64,000 nt of DNA, from contig JAEUOS010000141.1 of assembly GCA_016790695.1 (NCBI GenBank), positions 1 to 64,000 on the forward strand, read 5' to 3'. The first letter of the stretch is position 1. Every line of letters starts with the position of its first letter. Of this stretch, positions 7,525 to 46,957 are shown piece after piece. The notes below the pieces were generated by a model. That model worked only from the letters and a program-made list of their open reading frames with translations, had not been told where the DNA came from and made no database searches. Source of the stretch: Burkholderiales bacterium (GTDB lineage: Bacteria > Pseudomonadota > Gammaproteobacteria > Burkholderiales > JAEUOS01). Made by a program: the position numbers and the translations under genes.

Positions 7525-8577
7525 TCAGGCCGCCAGCGCCGGCGGCGCCGTCGCGCGCTCGGCGGCGACGAGACGGTCGATCACCCGGCGCGCATGCGTG
7601 CCGCCGGCATCGATGTTGAGCACCAGCAGGCGTCGCGCCGGATGCGCCGAGAGGTTGCGCTGCTGGGCTTCCAGCACGGCAAGGTCCTCGGCGAAGATCT
7701 TCGCCTGGCCTTCGCGGATGGCGGCGGTCAGCGCGCGGTCGCCGGGATTGAAGTTGCGCGCCATGCCCCAGAAGTAGTGCATCGAGGTCTCGGTCTCGGG
7801 GGTGATGAAGTCCACCACGATCGAATAGGCCTTGTGTTCGGGCGCGGCCTCGTAGCCGCCGCGGCCCGCGTGCGCGACGCCGACCTCGATCATCACGTGC
7901 GAGGGCGGGGTGAAGCGGCAGATCTGCCAGCGGTCCACCGGCACGTCATCGCGGAGGCCCGCGCCGCGCAGCGCCATGCGCCAGAACGGGGGCGCCATGA
8001 TGTTGTCCATGAAGCGGCTGGTGGTGACGGCGTCGCCCTCCGCGCGCGTGCGCGGCGGCGCTTCCTCGATCTCGCGCTGGCCGATGCTGCCCGCATGGAC
8101 CCAGGTCTCGTGGGTGAGGTCCATCAGGTTGTCGATCATCAGCCGGTAGTCGCAGGCAACGTGGTAGTACCCGCCGCCGTAGGCCCATTCGGGGTTGTCG
8201 GCCCAGTCGAGGTGCGGAATGGCGGCGGCGTCGGCGAGCGCGGCGTCGCCCGGCCAGACCCAGATGAAGCCGTGGCGCTCGATGACCGGATAGGCGCGGA
8301 TGGCCGGGAACTTCTGCACCCGCTGACAGGGCATCGCCAGCGTCCTGCCGTCGGGACCCATCTCCAGCCCGTGGTAGCCGCAGACCAGACGCCCTTCGGT
8401 GACGCGTCCGAGCGAGAGCGCGGCGCCGCGGTGCGGGCAGAAGTCCTCGAGCGCCGCGACCGCGCCGCCTTCGGCGCGATAGAAGACGATGGCCTGGCCG
8501 CAGACGCGCCGGCCGAGCGGCCGGCCGTCGATCTCGTCGGCGCTGCAGGCGACATACCAGGTGTTGAGCGCGAACAT
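7525..8577 (-). CDS. Rieske 2Fe-2S aromatic oxygenase, VanA-like
   Basis: A 351-residue terminal oxygenase of the vanillate O-demethylase / phenoxybenzoate dioxygenase type. The Rieske cluster ligands are C47-x-H49 (FCPHRG) and C66-x2-H69 (CGYHG). The mononuclear iron site is carried by DNLMDLTHETWVH, with H156, H161 and nearby acids. The start at 8577 has a good AGGAGA site; the frame continues open to 8661, but the upstream residues do not resemble the family. No reductase partner (VanB) is adjacent, so electrons must come from elsewhere. Likely substrate is a methoxylated or carboxylated aromatic. A LysR gene lies divergently upstream. Confidence 0.88.
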   Translation of the reverse strand: MFALNTWYVACSADEIDGRPLGRRVCGQAIVFYRAEGGAVAALEDFCPHRGAALSLGRVTEGRLVCGYHGLEMGPDGRTLAMPCQRVQKFPAIRAYPVIERHGFIWVWPGDAALADAAAIPHLDWADNPEWAYGGGYYHVACDYRLMIDNLMDLTHETWVHAGSIGQREIEEAPPRTRAEGDAVTTSRFMDNIMAPPFWRMALRGAGLRDDVPVDRWQICRFTPPSHVMIEVGVAHAGRGGYEAAPEHKAYSIVVDFITPETETSMHYFWGMARNFNPGDRALTAAIREGQAKIFAEDLAVLEAQQRNLSAHPARRLLVLNIDAGGTHARRVIDRLVAAERATAPPALAA

Positions 8578-35835: not shown

Positions 35836-36774
35836 GTGGCAGACGACAGCACACTGGGATTCATCGGGCTCGGCGTCATGGGCGAGCCGATCTGCCGCAA
35901 CCTGGCCCGCAAGAGCGGCCGGATGGTGCGCGCCCACGACCGCGATCCGGCGCGGCCGGCGCGCCTGGCCGCGCACGGCGTCGCCGCCGTCGACTCCGCA
36001 GGCGAGCTGGCCGCGCAGGCCGGGATCGTGTTCCTGTGCCTGCCCTCCGGCAGCCACGTCGAGTCGCTGTGCGACGGCCCCGCGGGCCTGGTGGCGCGGG
36101 CGCGTCCGGGCCAGGTCTTTGTGGACCTCGGCACGTCGCCGGTGCGCCTGGCGCGCCGCCTGGCGGGCGACTTCGCGGCGCGCGGCGCCGCGTTCGCCGA
36201 CGCGCCGATCGCGCGCACGCGCGAGGCGGCGCAGCAGGGCACGCTGTCGGTGATGGTGGGCGCCGACCCGGCGGTGTACGAGCGCCTGCTGCCGCTGATC
36301 GAGACCTTCGCCAGCGACGTCACGCACTGTGGCCCGGCGGGAGCGGGGCAGGCGCTGAAGATCCTGAACAACATGGTGCTGACCCAGACCGTCAACGCGC
36401 TCGCGGAGGCGCTGGCGATGGGGCGGCGGCTGGGGATCGCGCCCGCGCTGCTGTTCGACACGCTGGCCAAGGGGTCGGCCGACAGCTTCGCGCTGCGCAA
36501 CCACGGCATGAAGGCGATGTTGCCGGGCACCTATCCGGAGCAGGCGTTCTCGACCGAGTACATGCAGAAGGACATCCGGTATGCGCTCGAGCTCGCGCGC
36601 GACACCGGCGTCGCGGCGCCCGGCGCGCAGCTCGGCGCCGACGTGCTGCAGCAGGCGATCGACGCCGGATTCGGCGCGCAGTACTGGCCCGTGATCGCCC
36701 GCGTGGTCGACCGCGCCGGCGACGAGGTATCCGGGACGCGCGGCGCCGGGCCGACCGCGACGCGCGGCGTCTAG
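35836..36774 (+). CDS. NAD(P)-dependent 3-hydroxyisobutyrate-dehydrogenase family
   Basis: A 312-residue beta-hydroxyacid dehydrogenase. The N-terminal GFIGLGVMGEPICRNLARKSG is the Rossmann loop. FADAPIARTREAAQQGTLSVMVGAD gives substrate binding, and the catalytic Lys is in GAGQALKILNNMVL. GTG start with AGGAG 5 bases before. It follows the nitrile hydratase genes by 37 bp and may belong to the same operon, acting on a hydroxy acid derived from the nitrile. Its TAG shares the CTAG at 36771-36774 with the stop of the convergent GMC gene. Confidence 0.87.
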   Translation: MADDSTLGFIGLGVMGEPICRNLARKSGRMVRAHDRDPARPARLAAHGVAAVDSAGELAAQAGIVFLCLPSGSHVESLCDGPAGLVARARPGQVFVDLGTSPVRLARRLAGDFAARGAAFADAPIARTREAAQQGTLSVMVGADPAVYERLLPLIETFASDVTHCGPAGAGQALKILNNMVLTQTVNALAEALAMGRRLGIAPALLFDTLAKGSADSFALRNHGMKAMLPGTYPEQAFSTEYMQKDIRYALELARDTGVAAPGAQLGADVLQQAIDAGFGAQYWPVIARVVDRAGDEVSGTRGAGPTATRGV

Positions 36775-38348
36775 GAAGCCAGAACCATCGCCGCGCCCTT
36801 CTCGGCGATCATGTAGGTGGCGGCGTTGGTGTTGGCCGAGATCACGGCCGGCATCACCGAGGCATCGATCACGCGCAGGCGCTCGACGCCGCGCACGCGC
36901 AGCTGCGGATCGACGACGGCGCGTTCGTCGCCGCCCATGCGGCAGGTCGAGGTCGGGTGGAACACCGTGCCGCCGCGGGTGCGCGCGAACTCCCACAGGT
37001 CGGGCCGCGCCGGCAGGGTCTCCTCGACCCAGAGGTCGCGGAACGCCGGCTGCGCGTAGATCTCGCGCAGCATCTCGAGCCCGGAGACGATGACCTTGCG
37101 GTCGTGCGGCGCGGAGAAATAGCGCGGCTCGATGCGCGGGGCGTCGAACGGGTCGGACGAGCGGATCGTGAGCCGGCCGCGCGAATCCGGGCGGCACTGG
37201 CAGGCCGAGGCGCTGAAGCCGGAGTAGGTGTGCAGCGGGTCGCCGGGCTTGTCGACCGACAGCGGCATGACGTTGAACTGGACATCGGCGCGGGCGTCGC
37301 GCGCGTGCGGGGTGCGCGCGAAGCCGCCGACCTGGCCGGCGCCGACGGTGAGCGGGCCGCGGTCGAACAGCAGCCACTGCAGTCCCATCTTCGCCAGCGA
37401 GAGCGGGTTGCGCACCTGGTCGTTCAGCGACATCCGGCGCTTCAGGCGCACGATCACCCGCGCCTGGTAGTGGTCCTGCAGGTTCTCGCCGACCTCGGGC
37501 GCATCGGCGATGACCGGGATGCCGTGCTGGCGCAGCAGCGCGGCCGGGCCGATCCCCGAGAGCTGCAGCAGCTGCGGCGACTGCAGGGCGCCGGCGGCGA
37601 GGATGACCTCGCGCGCGGCGCGCGCGCGGCGCAGCGCGCCGCCCTCGATCCATTCGACGCCGGTCGCGGTCGTGCCCTCGAACAGGACGCGCGCGGCCTG
37701 CGCATGCAGGATCAGGGTCAGGTTGGCGCGTTGCAGCGCCGGGCGCAGGAAGCAGCGCGCGGCCGAGGCGCGCCAGCCGCCGCGCAGCGTCAGCTGGTAG
37801 GCGCCGACGCCGTAGTCGGTGGCGGCGTTGAAGTCGGGATTGCGCGGCAGCCCGAGCTGTTGCGCCGCCTCGAGCCAGGCGGCGCAGTACGGGTGGTCGT
37901 TCCGCAGGTCGGAGACGCCGAGCTCGCCCGCGGCGCCGTGGTAGGCGTTCGCGCCGCCGGCGTAGGCTTCCGAGCGCTTGAAGTCGGGCAGCACCGACGC
38001 GTAGTCCCAGCCGGTGGCGCCGGCCGCGGCCCAGTCGTCGTAGTCGGCGTGCTGGCCGCGGATGTAGATCAGCCCGTTGACCGAGGAAGAGCCGCCGAGG
38101 ACGCGGCCGCGCGGCCAGACCACGTTGCGCCCGCCGCTGCCCTCGTCGGGCTCGGTGTCGAACTGCCGCGTGAAGCGCGGATCGACCATGGTCCTGAAAT
38201 AGCCGACCGGCAGGTGGATCCAGAAGTTGCGATCCGGACCGCCGGCCTCGAGCAGGAGCACGCGCCGCCCGGCGGCGGTCAGGCGATTGGCGAGCAGGCA
38301 GCCGGCCGAGCCGGCGCCGACGACGATGTGGTCGTAGTCGGCCGTCAC
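36771..38348 (-). CDS. GMC-family FAD oxidoreductase (choline/alcohol dehydrogenase-like)
   Basis: A 525-residue flavoenzyme. N-terminal YDHIVVGAGSAGCLLANRL is the FAD loop. GRVLGGSSSVNGLIYIRGQ and GALQSPQLLQLSGIGP are the two GMC signatures. HPTSTCRMG near the C-terminus carries the catalytic His region. The GTG start overlaps the TGA of the upstream ABC receptor gene (GTGA at 38345-38348), so it is translated with the importer. The likely substrate is an alcohol or polyether imported by that system. It is soluble or peripheral; electron acceptor unknown. Confidence 0.88.
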   Translation of the reverse strand: MTADYDHIVVGAGSAGCLLANRLTAAGRRVLLLEAGGPDRNFWIHLPVGYFRTMVDPRFTRQFDTEPDEGSGGRNVVWPRGRVLGGSSSVNGLIYIRGQHADYDDWAAAGATGWDYASVLPDFKRSEAYAGGANAYHGAAGELGVSDLRNDHPYCAAWLEAAQQLGLPRNPDFNAATDYGVGAYQLTLRGGWRASAARCFLRPALQRANLTLILHAQAARVLFEGTTATGVEWIEGGALRRARAAREVILAAGALQSPQLLQLSGIGPAALLRQHGIPVIADAPEVGENLQDHYQARVIVRLKRRMSLNDQVRNPLSLAKMGLQWLLFDRGPLTVGAGQVGGFARTPHARDARADVQFNVMPLSVDKPGDPLHTYSGFSASACQCRPDSRGRLTIRSSDPFDAPRIEPRYFSAPHDRKVIVSGLEMLREIYAQPAFRDLWVEETLPARPDLWEFARTRGGTVFHPTSTCRMGGDERAVVDPQLRVRGVERLRVIDASVMPAVISANTNAATYMIAEKGAAMVLAS

Positions 38349-39358
38349 GCCTTGATCGTGTCCATGTAGAGCCGCGCGTCGAAATAGGTGGCGGCCGGCA
38401 CCGGGTTCTGGATGTTGCCGAAGCGCACGAAGAAGTCGGTCACCTGCTGCTGCCAGCGCGTCGCGGTGCCGTCGGCGTAGAGCTTGCGCCACTCGGCCGA
38501 CGAGTAGTAGCGCGAGGCCTTGAACTGCTCCTGCAGGTCGCCCAGCGGCACCTGCGGGTAGTTGTTCTTCTGGATCACCGGGAGGATCTCTGCCGCGTTC
38601 TTCATCAGGTCGTCGTTCGCGGCCGCCCAGGCGCGCACCACGCGCGCGCAGATGTCGCGGTTCTTCTCGTAGTAGTCGCCGCGCGCGGCCCAGCCGCCGA
38701 CGATCGCCGCCTTCGGGAAGTACGCGGAAGCGTCGACCAGCATCCGCGCGCCGGGGACCTTGTCGCGCACGGTGATGTTGAACGGCACCCACAGCGCGAC
38801 CGCCGGCACGGCGCCGGAGATGAACGAGGTCACCGCGGTGGGCATGCCCTGGTTGACCAGCTCGATGTCCTTGACGGGGTCGATGCCGTTGGCGCGCAGC
38901 GCGGTGTCGAGGAAGACGTGCGCGGTGGTGCCGGCCGTGGTCGAGATCTTCTTGCCCTTCAGGTCGGCCCAGGTCTTGACCCCCATGTCCTCGCGCACCC
39001 AGAGCTGCGCGGTGGCGAACTCGACGTTGTTGAGCAGGAACACCCTGCCCTGGCCGCGTGCCGGGAAGTTCGACAGCACCGCGCCGGTCGAGAGCATGTC
39101 GAGGCTGCCGCCGATCATGGCGTTGAACAGCTCCAGCCCGGTGGAGAACATGGTGGTCTCGAGCTCGAGGCCTTCCTTCGCCCAGTGGCCGCGGTGGACG
39201 CCGGTCCAGATCTGGCCGTTGACGGCCAGCGTGTTGACGTAGCCGACGCGCAGCCGGGTGCGCTGCTGCGCGATCGCCGGGAAGCCGGCGAGGGCGCCGG
39301 CGGCGCCGGCCGCCTTGACGAATGTCCTGCGGGCGATGTTCGTGCTGCGCTTGCTCAT
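38345..39358 (-). CDS. ABC transporter substrate-binding protein (SsuA/TauA/NMT1-like)
   Basis: A 337-residue periplasmic receptor. MSKRSTNIARRTFVKAAGAAGALAGFPAIAQ is a twin-arginine signal. The mature domain (LRVGYVNTLAVNGQIWTGVHRGHWAKEGLELE) and the block DLKGKKISTTAGTTAHVFLDTAL belong to the nitrate/sulfonate/taurine-type binding proteins. It is third gene of permease, ATPase, receptor, GMC oxidoreductase. GGAGGAGA precedes the ATG. Ligand is unknown; the coupled oxidoreductase suggests an oxidisable organic compound. Confidence 0.87.
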   Translation of the reverse strand: MSKRSTNIARRTFVKAAGAAGALAGFPAIAQQRTRLRVGYVNTLAVNGQIWTGVHRGHWAKEGLELETTMFSTGLELFNAMIGGSLDMLSTGAVLSNFPARGQGRVFLLNNVEFATAQLWVREDMGVKTWADLKGKKISTTAGTTAHVFLDTALRANGIDPVKDIELVNQGMPTAVTSFISGAVPAVALWVPFNITVRDKVPGARMLVDASAYFPKAAIVGGWAARGDYYEKNRDICARVVRAWAAANDDLMKNAAEILPVIQKNNYPQVPLGDLQEQFKASRYYSSAEWRKLYADGTATRWQQQVTDFFVRFGNIQNPVPAATYFDARLYMDTIKA

Positions 39359-39377
39359 GCTTGTCTCCTCCAGGTTG

Positions 39378-40208
39378 TCAGCCCGGGCGCCGCGCCGGAT
39401 CGGCGGACACCTGGCGCTGTTGCGCCGCGTATTCTTTCATGACCAGGTCGCGGATGTGCGAGCGCAGCTCGCCGAACTCGGGACGTTCGTGCAGCGACTC
39501 GTCGCGCGGATAGGGGAACGGCACCGCGATGACGCTGCGGATGCGCGACGGGCGCGCCGTCACCACGATGATCTTCGAGGAGAGGTAGATCGCCTCCTCG
39601 ACCGAATGGGTGATCAGCATCACCGTCTTGCCCTCGGCGGCGAGCACCTCGAGCAGCAGGTCCTGCATGTGCGAGCGGGTCTGCGCGTCGAGCGCGCCGA
39701 ACGGCTCGTCCATCAGCAGGAACTGCGGCCGCACGGCGTAGGCGCGCGCGATCGCGAGGCGCTGCCGCATGCCGCCCGAGAGCGTCTTCGGATAGGCGCG
39801 CGCGAAGTCCGCGAGGCCCATCAGGCGCATGTAGCGCTGCACGACCTCGCGCTTCTCGGCCGCGGACATGCGGTTGGCGGCCAGGTTCAGGCCGAACGCG
39901 ATGTTCTCCTCGACCGTCAGCCACGGGAAGACGCCGTACTCCTGGAAGATCACGCCGCGCTCGGGACCGGGGCCGCCGACCGGCTTGCCGTCGAGCGTGA
40001 CGCTGCCGGCGGTGGGCGCGACGAATCCCGCGACGATGTTCATCATGGTCGTCTTGCCGCACCCCGACGGCCCGATGATGGAAACGAACTCGCGGTCGGC
40101 GACGGTGAAGGAGACGTCCTCGACCACCTGCAGCGGGCCGTGCGCGGTCGCGAAGCGCACCGACACGCGGTCGAAGGCGATGCGCGGCGCGGGCGCGGCG
40201 GCGCTCAT
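39378..40208 (-). CDS. ABC transporter ATP-binding protein (SsuB/TauB-like)
   Basis: A 276-residue ATPase. Walker A GPSGCGKTT, Q-loop IFQEYGVFPWLTVEENIAFGL, signature LSGGMRQRLAIARAYAV, Walker B LLMDEPFGALD and the switch His (LITHSVEEAI) are intact. The ATG overlaps the permease stop (ATGA at 40205-40208). It powers the importer made with the permease at 40205 and the receptor at 38345. Confidence 0.92.
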   Translation of the reverse strand: MSAAAPAPRIAFDRVSVRFATAHGPLQVVEDVSFTVADREFVSIIGPSGCGKTTMMNIVAGFVAPTAGSVTLDGKPVGGPGPERGVIFQEYGVFPWLTVEENIAFGLNLAANRMSAAEKREVVQRYMRLMGLADFARAYPKTLSGGMRQRLAIARAYAVRPQFLLMDEPFGALDAQTRSHMQDLLLEVLAAEGKTVMLITHSVEEAIYLSSKIIVVTARPSRIRSVIAVPFPYPRDESLHERPEFGELRSHIRDLVMKEYAAQQRQVSADPARRPG

Positions 40209-40957
40209 GCGCCGATCCTGTCCTGCCACGCGACCAGGCGCCGGCTCGCCGTGCGCAGCGCCAGGTCCATCGCCAGCGCGATGAAGCCGATGCAGATGAT
40301 GCCGACGTAGATGATGTCGAGCTGGAAGAACGACCCCGCGTTCTGGATCAGCGCGCCCAGCCCCTGCTGCGCCGCGATCAGCTCGGAGGCCACGAGCGTC
40401 GCCCACGCCACGCCGAGCGCGACGCGCAGCGCGGTGAGGATGTGCGGCACCGTCAGCGGCACGATCACCTTGCGGAAGATCTCCATGTCGGTCGCGCCGA
40501 GGGTGCGGGCGACGCGCACGAAGATCGGGCTGATCTGCGCGATGCCCTCGTACATGACGATGACGCCGGCGAAGAACGCCGCGTAGAAGAGGATGATCAC
40601 CTTGGCCGGCTCGCCGATGCCGAAGTAGATCACCACCAGCGGAATCAGCGCGATCGGCGGCAGCGCGCGGAAGAAGTTGATCAGCGGGTCGACGAAGCGG
40701 CGCACCTCGCGATACCAGCCCAGGAGGAACCCGACCGGCACGGCGAGCAGGATGCCTAGCGCCACGCCGAGAAAGACGCGCTGGGTCGACATCCAGATGT
40801 CCCGCGGCAGCCGCCCGCCCAGGAGCTCGTGCATGCGCAGCGCCACCTGGTGCGGCGTCGGCATCAGCGACGGGTTGACCAGACCGGAATAGGCGACCGC
40901 GTACCACAGGAGGATCAGCAACAGCCAGGGGGCGAGGATCAGTGCGGTGCGGCGCAA
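40205..40957 (-). CDS. ABC transporter permease (SsuC/TauC-like)
   Basis: A 250-residue inner-membrane permease with about six helices. The EAA-type loop is ARTLGATDMEIFRKVIVPLTVPHILTALRVALG. VGFLLGWYREVRRFVDPLINFFRALPPIALIPL matches the nitrate/sulfonate family. First gene of the four-gene operon permease, ATPase, receptor, GMC oxidoreductase. It lies 190 bp downstream of the selenoprotein gene on the same strand, so read-through is possible but not shown. Confidence 0.9.
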   Translation of the reverse strand: MRRTALILAPWLLLILLWYAVAYSGLVNPSLMPTPHQVALRMHELLGGRLPRDIWMSTQRVFLGVALGILLAVPVGFLLGWYREVRRFVDPLINFFRALPPIALIPLVVIYFGIGEPAKVIILFYAAFFAGVIVMYEGIAQISPIFVRVARTLGATDMEIFRKVIVPLTVPHILTALRVALGVAWATLVASELIAAQQGLGALIQNAGSFFQLDIIYVGIICIGFIALAMDLALRTASRRLVAWQDRIGA

Positions 40958-41147: not shown

Positions 41148-41675
41148 TCACGCGGGCGCGGTCAGGAGCGCGAGCGCGGCCTCGACGGCATCGTCGGCGA
41201 TGCGGTCGAGTTCCGCGGCCGTGCGGTTCTGGATCGGATGCGGGACGTAGACGATCGCCGGCTCGAAGCCGAGCGCCTGCGACTGCGTGGCGACCGCGTC
41301 GGTGAAGCCGGTGGTGACCACGGAGACGCCGGGGACGCCGCGCGCGTCCAGGTTCATGAGGTCGTGCAGACTGCACGACGTGCAGGAACCTCAGTCGGAG
41401 AGCCCGATCAGCACGACGTCGGCCTCCTCGGCGACCTTCTGCAGCGTCTCCGGGGTGGCGATCTTGGCGTTCGTGGGCTTGCCGGCACGCATGGTGCGGA
41501 TGTTGCGCTCGGCGAGGCGCATCTCGACGCGATCGAGGAATTCGCGGGTGCGCGTCTTGCCGATGTCGAACAGGCACACCGTGCGGCCCTCGAGCGAGGG
41601 CGGCGGCGCCAGGCGCGCGCGCTTCAGCGGCGAGGTCTCGGGAGTGGGGTCGCGCATCCAGGTGAGGGCGCTCAT
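41148..41675 (-). CDS. UGSC-family selenoprotein (in-frame UGA = selenocysteine)
   Basis: A 175-residue protein read through one in-frame TGA (41391-41393) at codon 95, giving ...GLSD-Sec95-GS-C98-TS-C101-SL. The frame is continuous on both sides: 94 codons before and 80 after, with uniform composition and a hydrophobic strand (EEADVVLIGLSD) leading into the motif. The Sec-Gly-Ser-Cys signature matches what I recall as the UGSC (seleno)protein family. A hairpin at 41361-41379 fits a bacterial SECIS. The ATG overlaps the thioredoxin-like gene's TGA. Sec with C98 probably makes a redox pair. If UGA is read as stop, a 94-residue fragment results. selA/B/C/D are not in the window. Biochemical function unknown. 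Confidence 0.85.
41357..41393 (-). promoter_or_regulatory. Bacterial SECIS-like hairpin
   Basis: Counting U of the UGA as 1, nucleotides 15-22 (GTCGTGCA) pair perfectly with 26-33 (TGCACGAC), closing a GUC loop at 23-25. Nucleotides 1-4 (UGAG) can also pair with 34-37 (CUCA), closing a lower stem with a 5' bulge. Loop bases G and U fall at 23 and 24, the same positions I recall as essential in the E. coli fdhF SECIS. A bulged U17 is not evident; position 17 is a paired C. Confidence 0.75.
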
Positions 41676-43111
41676 GGCTTGATCTCCTTGGTGACGGGTT
41701 GCAGCTCGAGATGGTTGCGCCCGGCGATCCAGCCGGGCAGGATGGCCGAGAACAGTCCGGCCGGACCGCCGGCGCGCACGATCATCAGGCCGCCGGGGTT
41801 GAACTTCGGCAGCGCCTCGTCGGCCAGCGCCGCCGGCATGCCCTCGCCGACGCCGTGCGCGCCGGCGACGAGGTCGCGGCCCGGGCGCAGCGTGGCGGCG
41901 TCGATCGCGGCCTCGATGCGGCGGCGGTCCCAGCCGGCCTCGGCGAAGATCGCGTGATGCTCGGGCGAGAGCACCAGGATCGCGCGCTGCGACTGCACCA
42001 TCTTCGGGTGGCCGATCGCGTTCAGGCCCATCGCCAGCGAGCGCGCCAGGTCCTCCGGGGTGCGCGACTTCTGGTCGACGAAGCCCTGCACGCCCTCGCC
42101 CTGGAACAACGTCACCGTGGAGCTGCCGGGCGCGAAGCCGCGCGACACCGAGAGCGGCTCCCAGCGCGGATCCGACTCGTCCTCGGCGAAGCAGAACGTG
42201 TACTTGCCGGGCCCGCCCAGGGTGGCGCGGTCGACCTCGCCGGGGCGGCCGCCGCCGATGTTGCGCACGATCAACTGCAGCGCGCGGCCGATGGTGGCGT
42301 TGGCGCGATTGCCCTGGCCGAGCGCGTTCATGCCGCTGTTCATGCCGATGCGGCGCGCGACCGGACCGTTGACGACGATGATCGGGCCCGAGAAGTAGGT
42401 CGTCGCCAGCAGGCCGTGCAGCGTGAATTCCGGCTCCAGCGCGGCCTCGACCGCGGCGAGCACCACCGGCAGGTACTCGGGCTTGCACCCGGCCATCACC
42501 GCGTTGATGGCGACCTTCTCGACCGTGCATTCGGCGAGGTTGGGCGGGATCCGCCCCACCACCTCGTCCGGCGCGCGCGTGGTGCCGGCGAGCATGCGCA
42601 GCACCCGCACGTCGGTCGGCGGCACGACCGGCAAGCCGTCGGTCCAGCCGCGCTCGAAGCAGATCTCGATCTCGTCGTCGTAGGGGCCGAAGTCGATGCG
42701 GCGCGCGCGGATGCCGGGTTCGCCGAAGCGCACCCGCAGGTAGTCGGCGAGGCCCGGCTCGACCGACTTCGAGCCGCAGCCGGGGCGCAGGCCCGGCAGG
42801 CCCGCGCCGAGGTCGGCGACGCCGGTCAGGCGCCGCCATTCGGCCGCGTCCCAGCCTTCGGTGCGCGCGACCTCGACGCCGTCCTCGAAGCGGACCAGCG
42901 TGGGGACGATCTCGACCCGATGCCGGAACGAATGCGCGAGCTCGCGGTCGTCGACCACGCCGTCGAGCCGGTCGGGGAAGGCGGGGTCGTCCTGGGAGTA
43001 GACCGTGAGCGCCGCGCCGCGTTCCGCCAGGCCGCGCAACACCGGCGCGATCAGTTCGCAGGTCGGGCAATCGCGCTTGGCGAACACCGCCAGCGAGGCG
43101 TGGACTGTCAT
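41672..43111 (-). CDS. Thioredoxin-domain protein paired with the UGSC selenoprotein
   Basis: A 479-residue protein in two parts. Residues 1-90 form a thioredoxin-like domain with the redox motif CPTC (FAKRDCPTCELIAPVL) and the cis-Pro region EIVPTLVRFEDG. The remaining ~380 residues are a large domain I cannot name, with CGSK near residue 115, GWTDGLPVVPPTDVRVLRML, AGCKPEYLPVVLAAVEA, and Gly-rich stretches (GMNSGMNALGQGNRANATIGRA). No signal peptide. ATG at 43111 has GGAG at good spacing; an upstream in-frame ATG at 43165 is less likely. Its stop overlaps the selenoprotein start, so the two probably work as a redox couple: the CPTC disulfide could recycle the Sec-Cys bond. That role is inference. 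Confidence 0.8.
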   Translation of the reverse strand: MTVHASLAVFAKRDCPTCELIAPVLRGLAERGAALTVYSQDDPAFPDRLDGVVDDRELAHSFRHRVEIVPTLVRFEDGVEVARTEGWDAAEWRRLTGVADLGAGLPGLRPGCGSKSVEPGLADYLRVRFGEPGIRARRIDFGPYDDEIEICFERGWTDGLPVVPPTDVRVLRMLAGTTRAPDEVVGRIPPNLAECTVEKVAINAVMAGCKPEYLPVVLAAVEAALEPEFTLHGLLATTYFSGPIIVVNGPVARRIGMNSGMNALGQGNRANATIGRALQLIVRNIGGGRPGEVDRATLGGPGKYTFCFAEDESDPRWEPLSVSRGFAPGSSTVTLFQGEGVQGFVDQKSRTPEDLARSLAMGLNAIGHPKMVQSQRAILVLSPEHHAIFAEAGWDRRRIEAAIDAATLRPGRDLVAGAHGVGEGMPAALADEALPKFNPGGLMIVRAGGPAGLFSAILPGWIAGRNHLELQPVTKEIKP

Positions 43112-44562: not shown

Positions 44563-45669
44563 ATGCGCGCGACCGTCCACCGCTTCACCATGCGCGACCC
44601 CGGCGACGTCTCGCAGCTGGCCGACGCGATCGAGGCGGGCACGGTCGATCCCGCGACCATCGTCGCGGTGATCGGCAAGACCGAGGGCAACGGCCTGGTC
44701 AACGACTTCACGCGCGGCTACCTCGTGCTGTCGCTAAAGCTGCTGCTGGCCGCGCGGCTCGGCGTCGCGCCCGACGCGGTCGCGCGCGCGGTGATCTTCG
44801 TCTTCTCGGGCGGCACCGAGGGCGTGCTCACGCCGCACTACACGGTGTTCTGCGTTGATCGCACTGCTGCGCCGCCGGCCTCGAGTGAAAAGCGCCTGGC
44901 GATCGGACGCGCGTTCACGCCGGTGCCCGCGCCCGAGCAGATCGGCACGCGCGCCCACGTGGCGATGGTGGCCGACGCGGTGCGGCGCGCGATGGCCGAG
45001 GCCGGCATCGTCGACGCGGCCGACGTGCAGTTCGTGCAGGTCAAGGGCGGGTGCGTGACCACCGAGGCGGCGCAGGCGGCGCTCGCGCGCGGCGCCCGGC
45101 TCGCGAGCAGCGATCCGAACAAGTCGATGGCGTACACGCGCGTCGCCGGGGCCTTCGGCGTGATGCAGGCGCTCGGTGAAATCGCGGCTGATGCGGTCGA
45201 CGAGGCCGCGTTCTTCGCGCGGCCGGACCTCTGGTGCGGGCGCGCCAGCGTCTCCTCCGGCATCGAGGTCGCCGAGAACGAGGTGGTGGTGTTCGGCAAC
45301 GCGCCCGGCTGGTCGAGCCGGTTCGTCATCGCCCAGCACACCATGGACGACGCGCTCGACATCAACGGCGTCTATGCGTGCCTGGACAAGCTCGGCATCG
45401 CCGCGCGCGGCGACAGCCGCGCGCCCGGGCTCGAGCGTGTCGCCTGCGCGCTGGTCAAGTGCGAGCCCGACGCGCGCGGCCTGGTGCGCGGCCAGCGCCA
45501 CACCATGTGGCAGGACGGCGACATCAACGCCCAGCGCCACATCCGCGGCGCCGTCGGCGGCCTGGTGGCGGGCGTGCTCGGCGACACCCGCATCTTCGTC
45601 TCCGGCGGCGCCGAGCACCAGGGTCCCCCGGGCGGCGGCCTGGTGGCGCTGATCGCGCGCACCGACTGA
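44563..45669 (+). CDS. Ring-opening amidohydrolase (barbiturase / cyanuric acid hydrolase family)
   Basis: A 368-residue enzyme of the family (AtzD/TrzD/barbiturase) that hydrolyses cyclic imides through three Ser-Lys sites in a threefold-related fold. Seen: VIGKTEGNGLVNDFTR (Lys, repeat 1), VFSGGTEGVLTPHY (Ser, repeat 1), QFVQVKGGCVTTE and VSSGIEV (repeat 2), VACALVKCEPD and SGGAEHQGPPGGG (repeat 3). QVKGGC differs from the usual VKCP, so the substrate may not be cyanuric acid or barbiturate. GTG at 44554, overlapping the monooxygenase stop, is an alternative start. Likely step: opening the ring made by the upstream monooxygenase. Confidence 0.85.
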   Translation: MRATVHRFTMRDPGDVSQLADAIEAGTVDPATIVAVIGKTEGNGLVNDFTRGYLVLSLKLLLAARLGVAPDAVARAVIFVFSGGTEGVLTPHYTVFCVDRTAAPPASSEKRLAIGRAFTPVPAPEQIGTRAHVAMVADAVRRAMAEAGIVDAADVQFVQVKGGCVTTEAAQAALARGARLASSDPNKSMAYTRVAGAFGVMQALGEIAADAVDEAAFFARPDLWCGRASVSSGIEVAENEVVVFGNAPGWSSRFVIAQHTMDDALDINGVYACLDKLGIAARGDSRAPGLERVACALVKCEPDARGLVRGQRHTMWQDGDINAQRHIRGAVGGLVAGVLGDTRIFVSGGAEHQGPPGGGLVALIARTD

Positions 45670-45775: not shown

Positions 45776-46957
45776 ATGCCCCACATTCCCGCTTCGTCCG
45801 CCCTTGCCAATCTGCGCATCCTCGACCTCACGCGGGTGCGCGCCGGCCCCACCTGCGTGAAGCAGTTCGCCGACTTCGGGGCCGACGTGATCAAGATCGA
45901 GTCGCCGGAGCCGGACACGATGAGCGGCCCGCGCCACGGCTTCGACATGCAGAACCTGCATCGCAACAAGCGCTCGCTCACCCTCGACATGAAGGCGCCG
46001 GAGGGCAAGGAGATCCTGATGAAGCTGGTCAGGACGGCCGACGTCGTCGTCGAGAACTTCCGCCCCGACGTGAAGTTCCGCCTCGGCATCGACTACGAAT
46101 CGCTGCGCGCGGTGAACAAGCGCATCATCCTGGCCTCGATCTCCGGGTTCGGCCAGGACGGCCCGTACGGCACGCGCCCGGGATTCGACCAGATCGCGCA
46201 GGGCATGGGCGGCTTCATGTCGGTGACCGGGTTTCCGGGCGGCGGCCCGGTGCGCGCGGGCACCGCGATCGCCGACCTCTCGGGCGGCATGTTCGCGGCG
46301 CTGGGCATCTTCACCGCGCTGTGGGAGCGCCAGACCTCGGGCGAGGGGCAATGGGTGCAGTCGAGCCTCCTGATGGCGCAGATCGCGCTGATGGACTTCC
46401 AGGCCGCGCGCTACCTGATGAAGGGCGAGGTGCCGGGACAGGCCGGCAACGACCACCCGACCTCGATGCCGACCTCCGCCTACAAGACCAGGGACGGCTA
46501 CGTCAACATCGCCGCCTCGGGGCAGGTGATGTGGAAGCGCCTGTGCGAGGTGATGGGGCGGCCCGAACTGTTCGCCCAGGCCGAGTTCAAGGACGAGCCG
46601 TCGCGCTCGAAGAATCGCGTCGCGCTCAACGAGGAGATCACCAGGGCGACGGTGACGCGCAACACCGCCGAATGGGTCGAGACCCTGAACGAGGCGGGCG
46701 TGCCGTGCGGGCCGATCTACACCGTCGACCAGGTGTTCGCCGACCCGCAGGTCAAGCACCTCGGCGCGGCCGCGCCGGTGCAGCACCCGAAGCTCGGCGA
46801 GATCCGCCTGGTCAACCAGGCCGTCAAGCTCTCGCGCACGCCGGCGACGATGGCGCGCGCGACGCCGGAGCACAGCGAGCACACGGCGGAGATCCTGAAG
46901 GAGATCGGGTACGACGACGCGCAGATCGCGGACCTGAAGGCGCGCAAGGTGGTGTAG
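45776..46957 (+). CDS. Class III CoA-transferase (CaiB/BaiF family)
   Basis: A 393-residue CoA-transferase. ILDLTRVRAGPTCVKQFADFGADVIKIESPEPD and HRNKRSLTLDMKAPEGKEIL are family starts. The catalytic Asp is in RPGFDQIAQGMGGFMSVTG (about residue 138). It follows the ring-opening amidohydrolase by 106 bp on the same strand and could activate the released dicarboxylate or carbamoyl acid as a CoA ester. It is only distantly similar to the transferase at 13743. It converges on a MmgE/PrpD gene with a 31-bp gap. Confidence 0.88.
   Translation: MPHIPASSALANLRILDLTRVRAGPTCVKQFADFGADVIKIESPEPDTMSGPRHGFDMQNLHRNKRSLTLDMKAPEGKEILMKLVRTADVVVENFRPDVKFRLGIDYESLRAVNKRIILASISGFGQDGPYGTRPGFDQIAQGMGGFMSVTGFPGGGPVRAGTAIADLSGGMFAALGIFTALWERQTSGEGQWVQSSLLMAQIALMDFQAARYLMKGEVPGQAGNDHPTSMPTSAYKTRDGYVNIAASGQVMWKRLCEVMGRPELFAQAEFKDEPSRSKNRVALNEEITRATVTRNTAEWVETLNEAGVPCGPIYTVDQVFADPQVKHLGAAAPVQHPKLGEIRLVNQAVKLSRTPATMARATPEHSEHTAEILKEIGYDDAQIADLKARKVV

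Follow-up and report, generated by a model that had tools for sequence, protein, structure and literature searches.

GrdB and PrdB are selenium enzymes of anaerobic bacteria which cut amino acids by reductive cleavage. Details of these reactions are in part summarised in PMC13188914. A further family, UGSC, was described together with its use of selenocysteine (Sec) in 2008 (PMC2398784) and is also treated in PMC13188914. In addition, the 2008 paper notes the fusion of UGSC to a conserved domain termed Unknown_1. In Geodermatophilaceae, the Sec of UGSC genes is encoded by UAG (PMC5330540 and its reference 56). UGSC constitutes a major environmental selenoprotein family which has been functionally undescribed for almost two decades. 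A search of openly available literature returned no statement of a fixed partner, of a relation to PrdB or GrdB or of genomes with many copies. The UGSC gene considered here lies in a stretch of 64,000 nucleotides from a Burkholderiales bacterium (contig JAEUOS010000141.1), the whole of which is called the window.

The UGSC gene and its probable selenocysteine codon

On the minus strand of the window, a frame of 175 codons running from 41675 to 41148 is interrupted by a single TGA (Table 1). Reading through this codon yields the product ...EEADVVLIGLSD-U-GSCTSCSLHD..., which matches PF24696 (UGSC) at 2e-37 with 129.4 bits against a Pfam cut-off of 25. With NF041046 the protein reaches 124.7 bits and falls short of the NCBIfam cut-off of 125 by 0.3 bit. 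The fixed Sec/Cys position of the family, followed by G-S-C, is present, and on these matches the gene is clearly assignable to the UGSC family. The sequence-only reading had joined two open reading frames of the same frame, split by one TGA, into a protein of 175 residues with the motif Sec95-Gly-Ser-Cys98-Thr-Ser-Cys101, and both points were confirmed on the sequence. Its mention of a family named UGSC is borne out by the PF24696 match, and its placement of the redox residue right after a beta strand agrees with the predicted model, in which residue 95 sits between a strand (87-93) and a helix starting at 96. The description as unannotatable by default does not hold, since the family is catalogued as PF24696 and NF041046, was described in PMC2398784 and can be annotated today.

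Table 1. Positions of the features of the UGSC locus within the window.
Feature	Position	Strand	Remarks
Partner gene, 497 aa	41672..43165	-	Directly upstream; stop overlaps the UGSC start (ATGA)
Thioredoxin-like domain at the N-terminus of the partner, CPTC at residues 33-36 (43058-43069)	42840..43105 (approximate borders)	-	Thioredoxin_2, E 5e-4
Partner domain, about 325 aa, C-terminal	41720..42688	-	Without Pfam or NCBIfam name; nearly invariant Cys227 (42485-42487) in MAGC
UGSC family selenoprotein gene	41148..41675	-	175 residues and TGA stop; ATG at 41675-41673; PF24696, 129 bits
In-frame UGA, putative Sec95, motif U-G-S-C-T-S-C	41391..41393	-	From the frame and the codons of homologues
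Likely ribosome-binding site of the UGSC gene, AAGGAG	41684..41689	-	From the sequence; within the end of the upstream gene
SECIS core hairpin, 7 bp GUCGUGC/GCACGAC, loop AGUCU	41361..41379	-	Outer pairs extend the fold to about 41351-41391

The draft genome of the window (91% complete and 3.75% contaminated according to tool estimates), which its nearest named relatives mark as betaproteobacterium-like, contains a tRNA-Sec (selC) with the anticodon UCA, selA adjoining selB, and selD. It carries nine UGSC genes, eight of them outside this locus, each with exactly one internal TGA, and the copy in the window shares 23-33% identity with its paralogues. Six genomes of relatives from the same order feature 14-24 UGSC genes over cut-off each, with one TGA in all but one gene. 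UGSC genes with TGA number 24, 23 and 19 in the draft genomes G055, G140 and G005 of this order, where a single Sec family accounts for a large selenoproteome. A second Sec family in the genome of the window is represented by a PrdB-like gene with an in-frame TGA (VAM-U-PVCHQ; L102:1099-1695, contig C219), and further PrdB-like genes of this kind occur in the order relatives.

In a first alignment of 61 UGSC genes, all 58 TGAs fell into one column, in which the remaining three genes have Cys. Together with 70 genes from named genomes, this gives a set of 131, with TGA at the Sec site in 124, TAG in two and TGC in five. The TAG codons (L147:7677-7679 and L175:7650-7652) belong to UGSC genes of Blastococcus massiliensis and Geodermatophilus obscurus; the tRNA-Sec of both genomes has the anticodon CUA and fits the tRNA-Sec model with 64-65 bits, while ARAGORN names it tRNA-Pyl from the anticodon. 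In two named genomes with Cys at the site (L115 and L138), tRNA-Ser was seen and tRNA-Sec was not. A Cys homologue also occurs in a genome of the taxonomic family to which the window belongs, and this genome has tRNA-Sec and selA. One paralogue (L086:11571-12068) reads UGSS, keeping Sec with Ser in place of Cys98, so that Cys98 is not essential in every member. The paralogue neighbouring this gene (7810-8313) reads CGTS and has no TGA.

The perfect 7-bp stem of the SECIS hairpin starts 11 nt past the UGA, and the 45-nt fold reaches -20.8 kcal/mol, whereas shuffled sequences average -10.1 (z = -4.2). Among the 126 genes with TGA or TAG at the Sec site, 94% retain six or seven of the seven core stem pairs vs 31% after synonymous recoding, and the core folds at -11.4 kcal/mol on average compared to -6.2 kcal/mol in the recoded sequences. 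Three of the five Cys genes fold at -2.7 to -4.6 kcal/mol over the same region, a fourth at -7.8 and the fifth at -11.8 kcal/mol, which makes the loss of the hairpin in Cys genes a trend and not an absolute rule. An Rfam scan of the window at gathering thresholds returned no match.

Comparison of the window gene with four relatives revealed dN/dS values after the TGA of 0.17 (L054), 0.10 (L106), 0.23 (L107) and 0.16 (L111), with similar values before it and substitutions mainly at third positions. Purifying selection acts on both sides of the TGA with similar strength. A more distant Cys homologue (L084) showed higher dN/dS on both sides of the site. Among 200 genomes of the order, selA was found in 16 of the 18 with TGA-containing UGSC genes vs 39 of the 182 others (p = 2e-8, an optimistic value as it ignores the relatedness of the genomes). 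Both TGA-UGSC genomes without detected selA are draft assemblies, and one of them, G103, has a tRNA-Sec. Moreover, selA directly flanks the locus of UGSC and partner in ten named genomes.

The in-frame TGA of the window gene is thus very probably read as selenocysteine, as judged from these comparisons of sequences. What the sequence-only reading had tied this claim to was found throughout: selA, selB, selC and selD are each present in the same genome, position 95 is occupied in homologues by Cys or by Sec, the latter encoded by TGA or, where the tRNA matches, by TAG, and the codons downstream of the TGA are constrained (dN/dS about 0.10-0.23 in four comparisons). The SECIS element it had proposed proved sound in its 7-bp stem, its z-score of -4.2 and the pairing kept across Sec homologues. 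A pseudogene, which it had considered less likely, is indeed unlikely in view of this constraint, the homologous codon column and the SECIS. Its statement that selenoprotein genes are rare in this type of genome failed, as nine TGA-UGSC genes and at least one PrdB-like TGA gene occur here and such genes are common in the relatives, too.

The partner gene and the surroundings of the locus

The ATGA overlap between the stop of the upstream gene and the start of the UGSC gene suggests translational coupling. The sequence-only reading had overlooked this upstream gene as a fixed partner. Searches of the upstream product, the partner, against Pfam and NCBIfam identified no family except for the weak thioredoxin-like match at its N-terminus, which lies below the Pfam cut-off, with the CPTC domain being poorly modelled. 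Of 80 relatives compared with the 497-aa protein, 70 have a CxxC motif at the N-terminus. Named genomes with near-full-length relatives of the partner number at least 80 (563 matching stretches) and come from Alpha-, Beta-, Gamma- and Deltaproteobacteria, Acidobacteria, Actinobacteria, Chloroflexi, Hydrogenedentota and Myxococcota.

Most of the named partner loci have a UGSC gene nearby, and several are without one. Pseudonocardia bannensis is, like Geodermatophilus obscurus, among the cultured hosts of both genes. At 59 of 61 loci, the partner domain and UGSC lie on the same strand and are adjacent or fused (33 upstream, 26 downstream; 16 fused), and one of the two unlinked loci sits at a contig end. 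Among the 200 genomes sampled from the order, the 19 with UGSC over its cut-off are precisely those with the partner. A partner-domain gene without UGSC (L034:9388-10635) shows that the association is not absolute. Two fused UGSC-partner paralogues in the genome of the window have a thioredoxin-reductase-like gene alongside (L035:6412-7329). When the 80 named loci were compared all against all, the only conserved neighbours to emerge were the partner and UGSC, joined at some loci by selA-selB. The domain Unknown_1 of PMC2398784 is probably the partner domain described here. In a fold search, the predicted model of the partner gave no convincing match: its best Z of 5.0 covered about 94 residues, and fumarate hydratase and chorismate mutase scored similarly low. 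Searches of solved structures with UGSC, PrdB-like and partner profiles gave no match, and neither did a search of plasmids.

Directly downstream of the UGSC gene, at a distance of 191 bases, genes of a nitrate/taurine-type ABC transporter and a GMC oxidoreductase are located on the minus strand (36771-40957). The transporter was not taken as a clue to the substrate. No counterpart of these genes was seen next to those closest relatives whose flanks are long, apart from moderate permease and ATPase matches in L084. Binding proteins of the tripartite-tricarboxylate (TctC) type near several UGSC genes were discarded, because their proximity is expected by chance in a genome with at least 150 TctC-type solute-binding proteins. 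Besides, the plus strand of the window holds a gene of the cyanuric acid amidohydrolase family (44590-45669; NF052395 over cut-off), followed by a gene of CoA-transferase family III (45776-46957). At the loci compared, the surroundings do not give the substrate.

Relation to GrdB and PrdB, and a proposed mechanism

Apart from UGSC itself, the families which UGSC proteins match most often comprise the Sec subunits of the reductases for glycine, sarcosine, betaine and D-proline, and the GrdB model is the runner-up match for 29 of 45 UGSC proteins. Alignment of UGSC with a PrdB-like alignment in HHalign resulted in a probability of 91.9% (E 7e-7) with Sec placed on Sec, while the unrelated partner profile, serving as control, gave 1.0%. 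The similarity spans about 85 columns, with individual scores far below the cut-offs of GrdB and PrdB; the UGSC protein of the window reaches 18.7 bits vs a cut-off of 602 for TIGR01917 and has no PF07355 match at E 1. The PF07355 matches to PrdB-like genes stop just before their TGA. The Sec domain of UGSC is a distant relative of GrdB and PrdB with Sec in the same column. Pfam and NCBIfam searches of the partner for a pyruvoyl-type family match of the GrdE/PrdA kind found none, which gives no ground for assuming the carbonyl chemistry that glycine reductase uses.

The AlphaFold2 model of UGSC (pLDDT 94) features an alpha/beta domain of flavodoxin- or Rossmann-type appearance. Among solved structures, flavodoxin-, TIR-, PurE- and CheY-like folds come nearest to it; a thioredoxin fold is absent from these matches and may still apply. 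As these are common folds, the structural matches say nothing about function.

The Sec coding evidence, the linkage to the partner, the CPTC domain and the Sec-on-Sec homology to PrdB and GrdB are already established, and they lead to a concrete, testable enzyme hypothesis for UGSC. From them, we infer for UGSC and its partner a physical complex, an electron route, a reaction and a type of substrate. The reading towards which we lean, with slight preference, is a two-component, Sec-dependent reductase that is fed by thioredoxin and acts on small organic substrates with an attack like that of GrdB and PrdB. The ribosome very probably inserts Sec at the UGA of codon 95, directed by the downstream hairpin and the SelA, SelB, SelC and SelD of the genome, and the UGSC protein would form the catalytic half of the enzyme. 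The other half would be the product of the upstream gene, combining the thioredoxin-like CPTC domain with the partner domain of about 325 aa, which may hold a small organic substrate. The selenolate of Sec95 would attack this substrate as in the reductive cleavage by GrdB and PrdB, and Cys98 and Cys101 could resolve the resulting selenide-sulfide or selenium-substrate bond, with reduction supplied by the thioredoxin-like domain and thioredoxin reductase. The many UGSC paralogues may each serve a different substrate. A broader proposal, which we put forward tentatively and would not yet favour, is that UGSC and partner represent a large, diversified class of two-subunit Sec reductases which split small organic molecules with GrdB/PrdB-like chemistry and thioredoxin as donor, spread over betaproteobacteria and many further phyla with 9-24 paralogues per genome for different substrates.

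Rather unlikely, but the strongest of the rival explanations, is that the same selenoprotein and partner serve in thiol or peroxide redox defence, as an oxidoreductase of the thioredoxin or peroxiredoxin kind, and not in substrate catabolism. The U-x-x-C-x-x-C motif, the CPTC domain and the thioredoxin-reductase-like neighbours would suit such a role, and PMC2398784 assumed a thioredoxin-like fold and a thiol redox function for UGSC; the confident UGSC model, however, is nearest to flavodoxin/Rossmann-type alpha/beta folds, the homology leads to PrdB and GrdB, and the 9-24 diverged copies of a genome, of which the one in the window shares 23-33% identity with its paralogues, are hard to fit with a housekeeping peroxidase. 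That UGSC and partner handle metals, metalloids or organometallic compounds, the Sec acting as a soft ligand, seems quite improbable. PMC13188914 cites the proposal of an organometallic system which is assisted by Sec and has an ABC transporter of its own, and the ABC genes of the window weakly match the SaoA and SaoP models. Yet these matches reach 226 bits where 360 are required and 138 where 295 are, far under cut-off and similar to or weaker than those to nitrate/taurine transporters; the closest relatives do not retain the transporter at their loci, and a MerB-like gene was not seen among the neighbours. That the TGA is a real stop, as the standard code reads it, leaving a 94-residue protein or a decaying gene, is scarcely credible and already contradicted by the comparative data, namely TGA in the same column of 124 genes, TAG where tRNA-Sec reads UAG, the SECIS and the constraint past the TGA in four comparisons.

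Comparison with described systems

The UGSC family, its use of Sec and the encoding of Sec by UAG are already known, and the gene of the window is one further member. The linkage to the partner, the relation to GrdB and PrdB and the up to 24 UGSC selenoprotein genes per relative are added here; such a number of Sec copies of one family in betaproteobacterial relatives stands against the usual one or few per family. With the catalogued family (PF24696/NF041046), the window gene has in common a full-length match, a SECIS, the UGSC motif and a site taken by Sec or Cys, and it differs by the linked thioredoxin-partner gene and by nine copies in one genome. The selenoproteins of Geodermatophilaceae belong to the same family and have Sec at the same place, although it is encoded by UAG instead of UGA and read by tRNA-Sec(CUA); in Blastococcus massiliensis and Geodermatophilus obscurus, the same partner gene lies upstream, as in the window. 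GrdB, GrdF, GrdH and PrdB (PF07355/TIGR01917/TIGR04483) resemble UGSC in presenting Sec in a strand-UxxC-helix context, whereas UGSC, with about 175 aa, matches their C-terminal Sec region only (profile positions 332-418 of 431).
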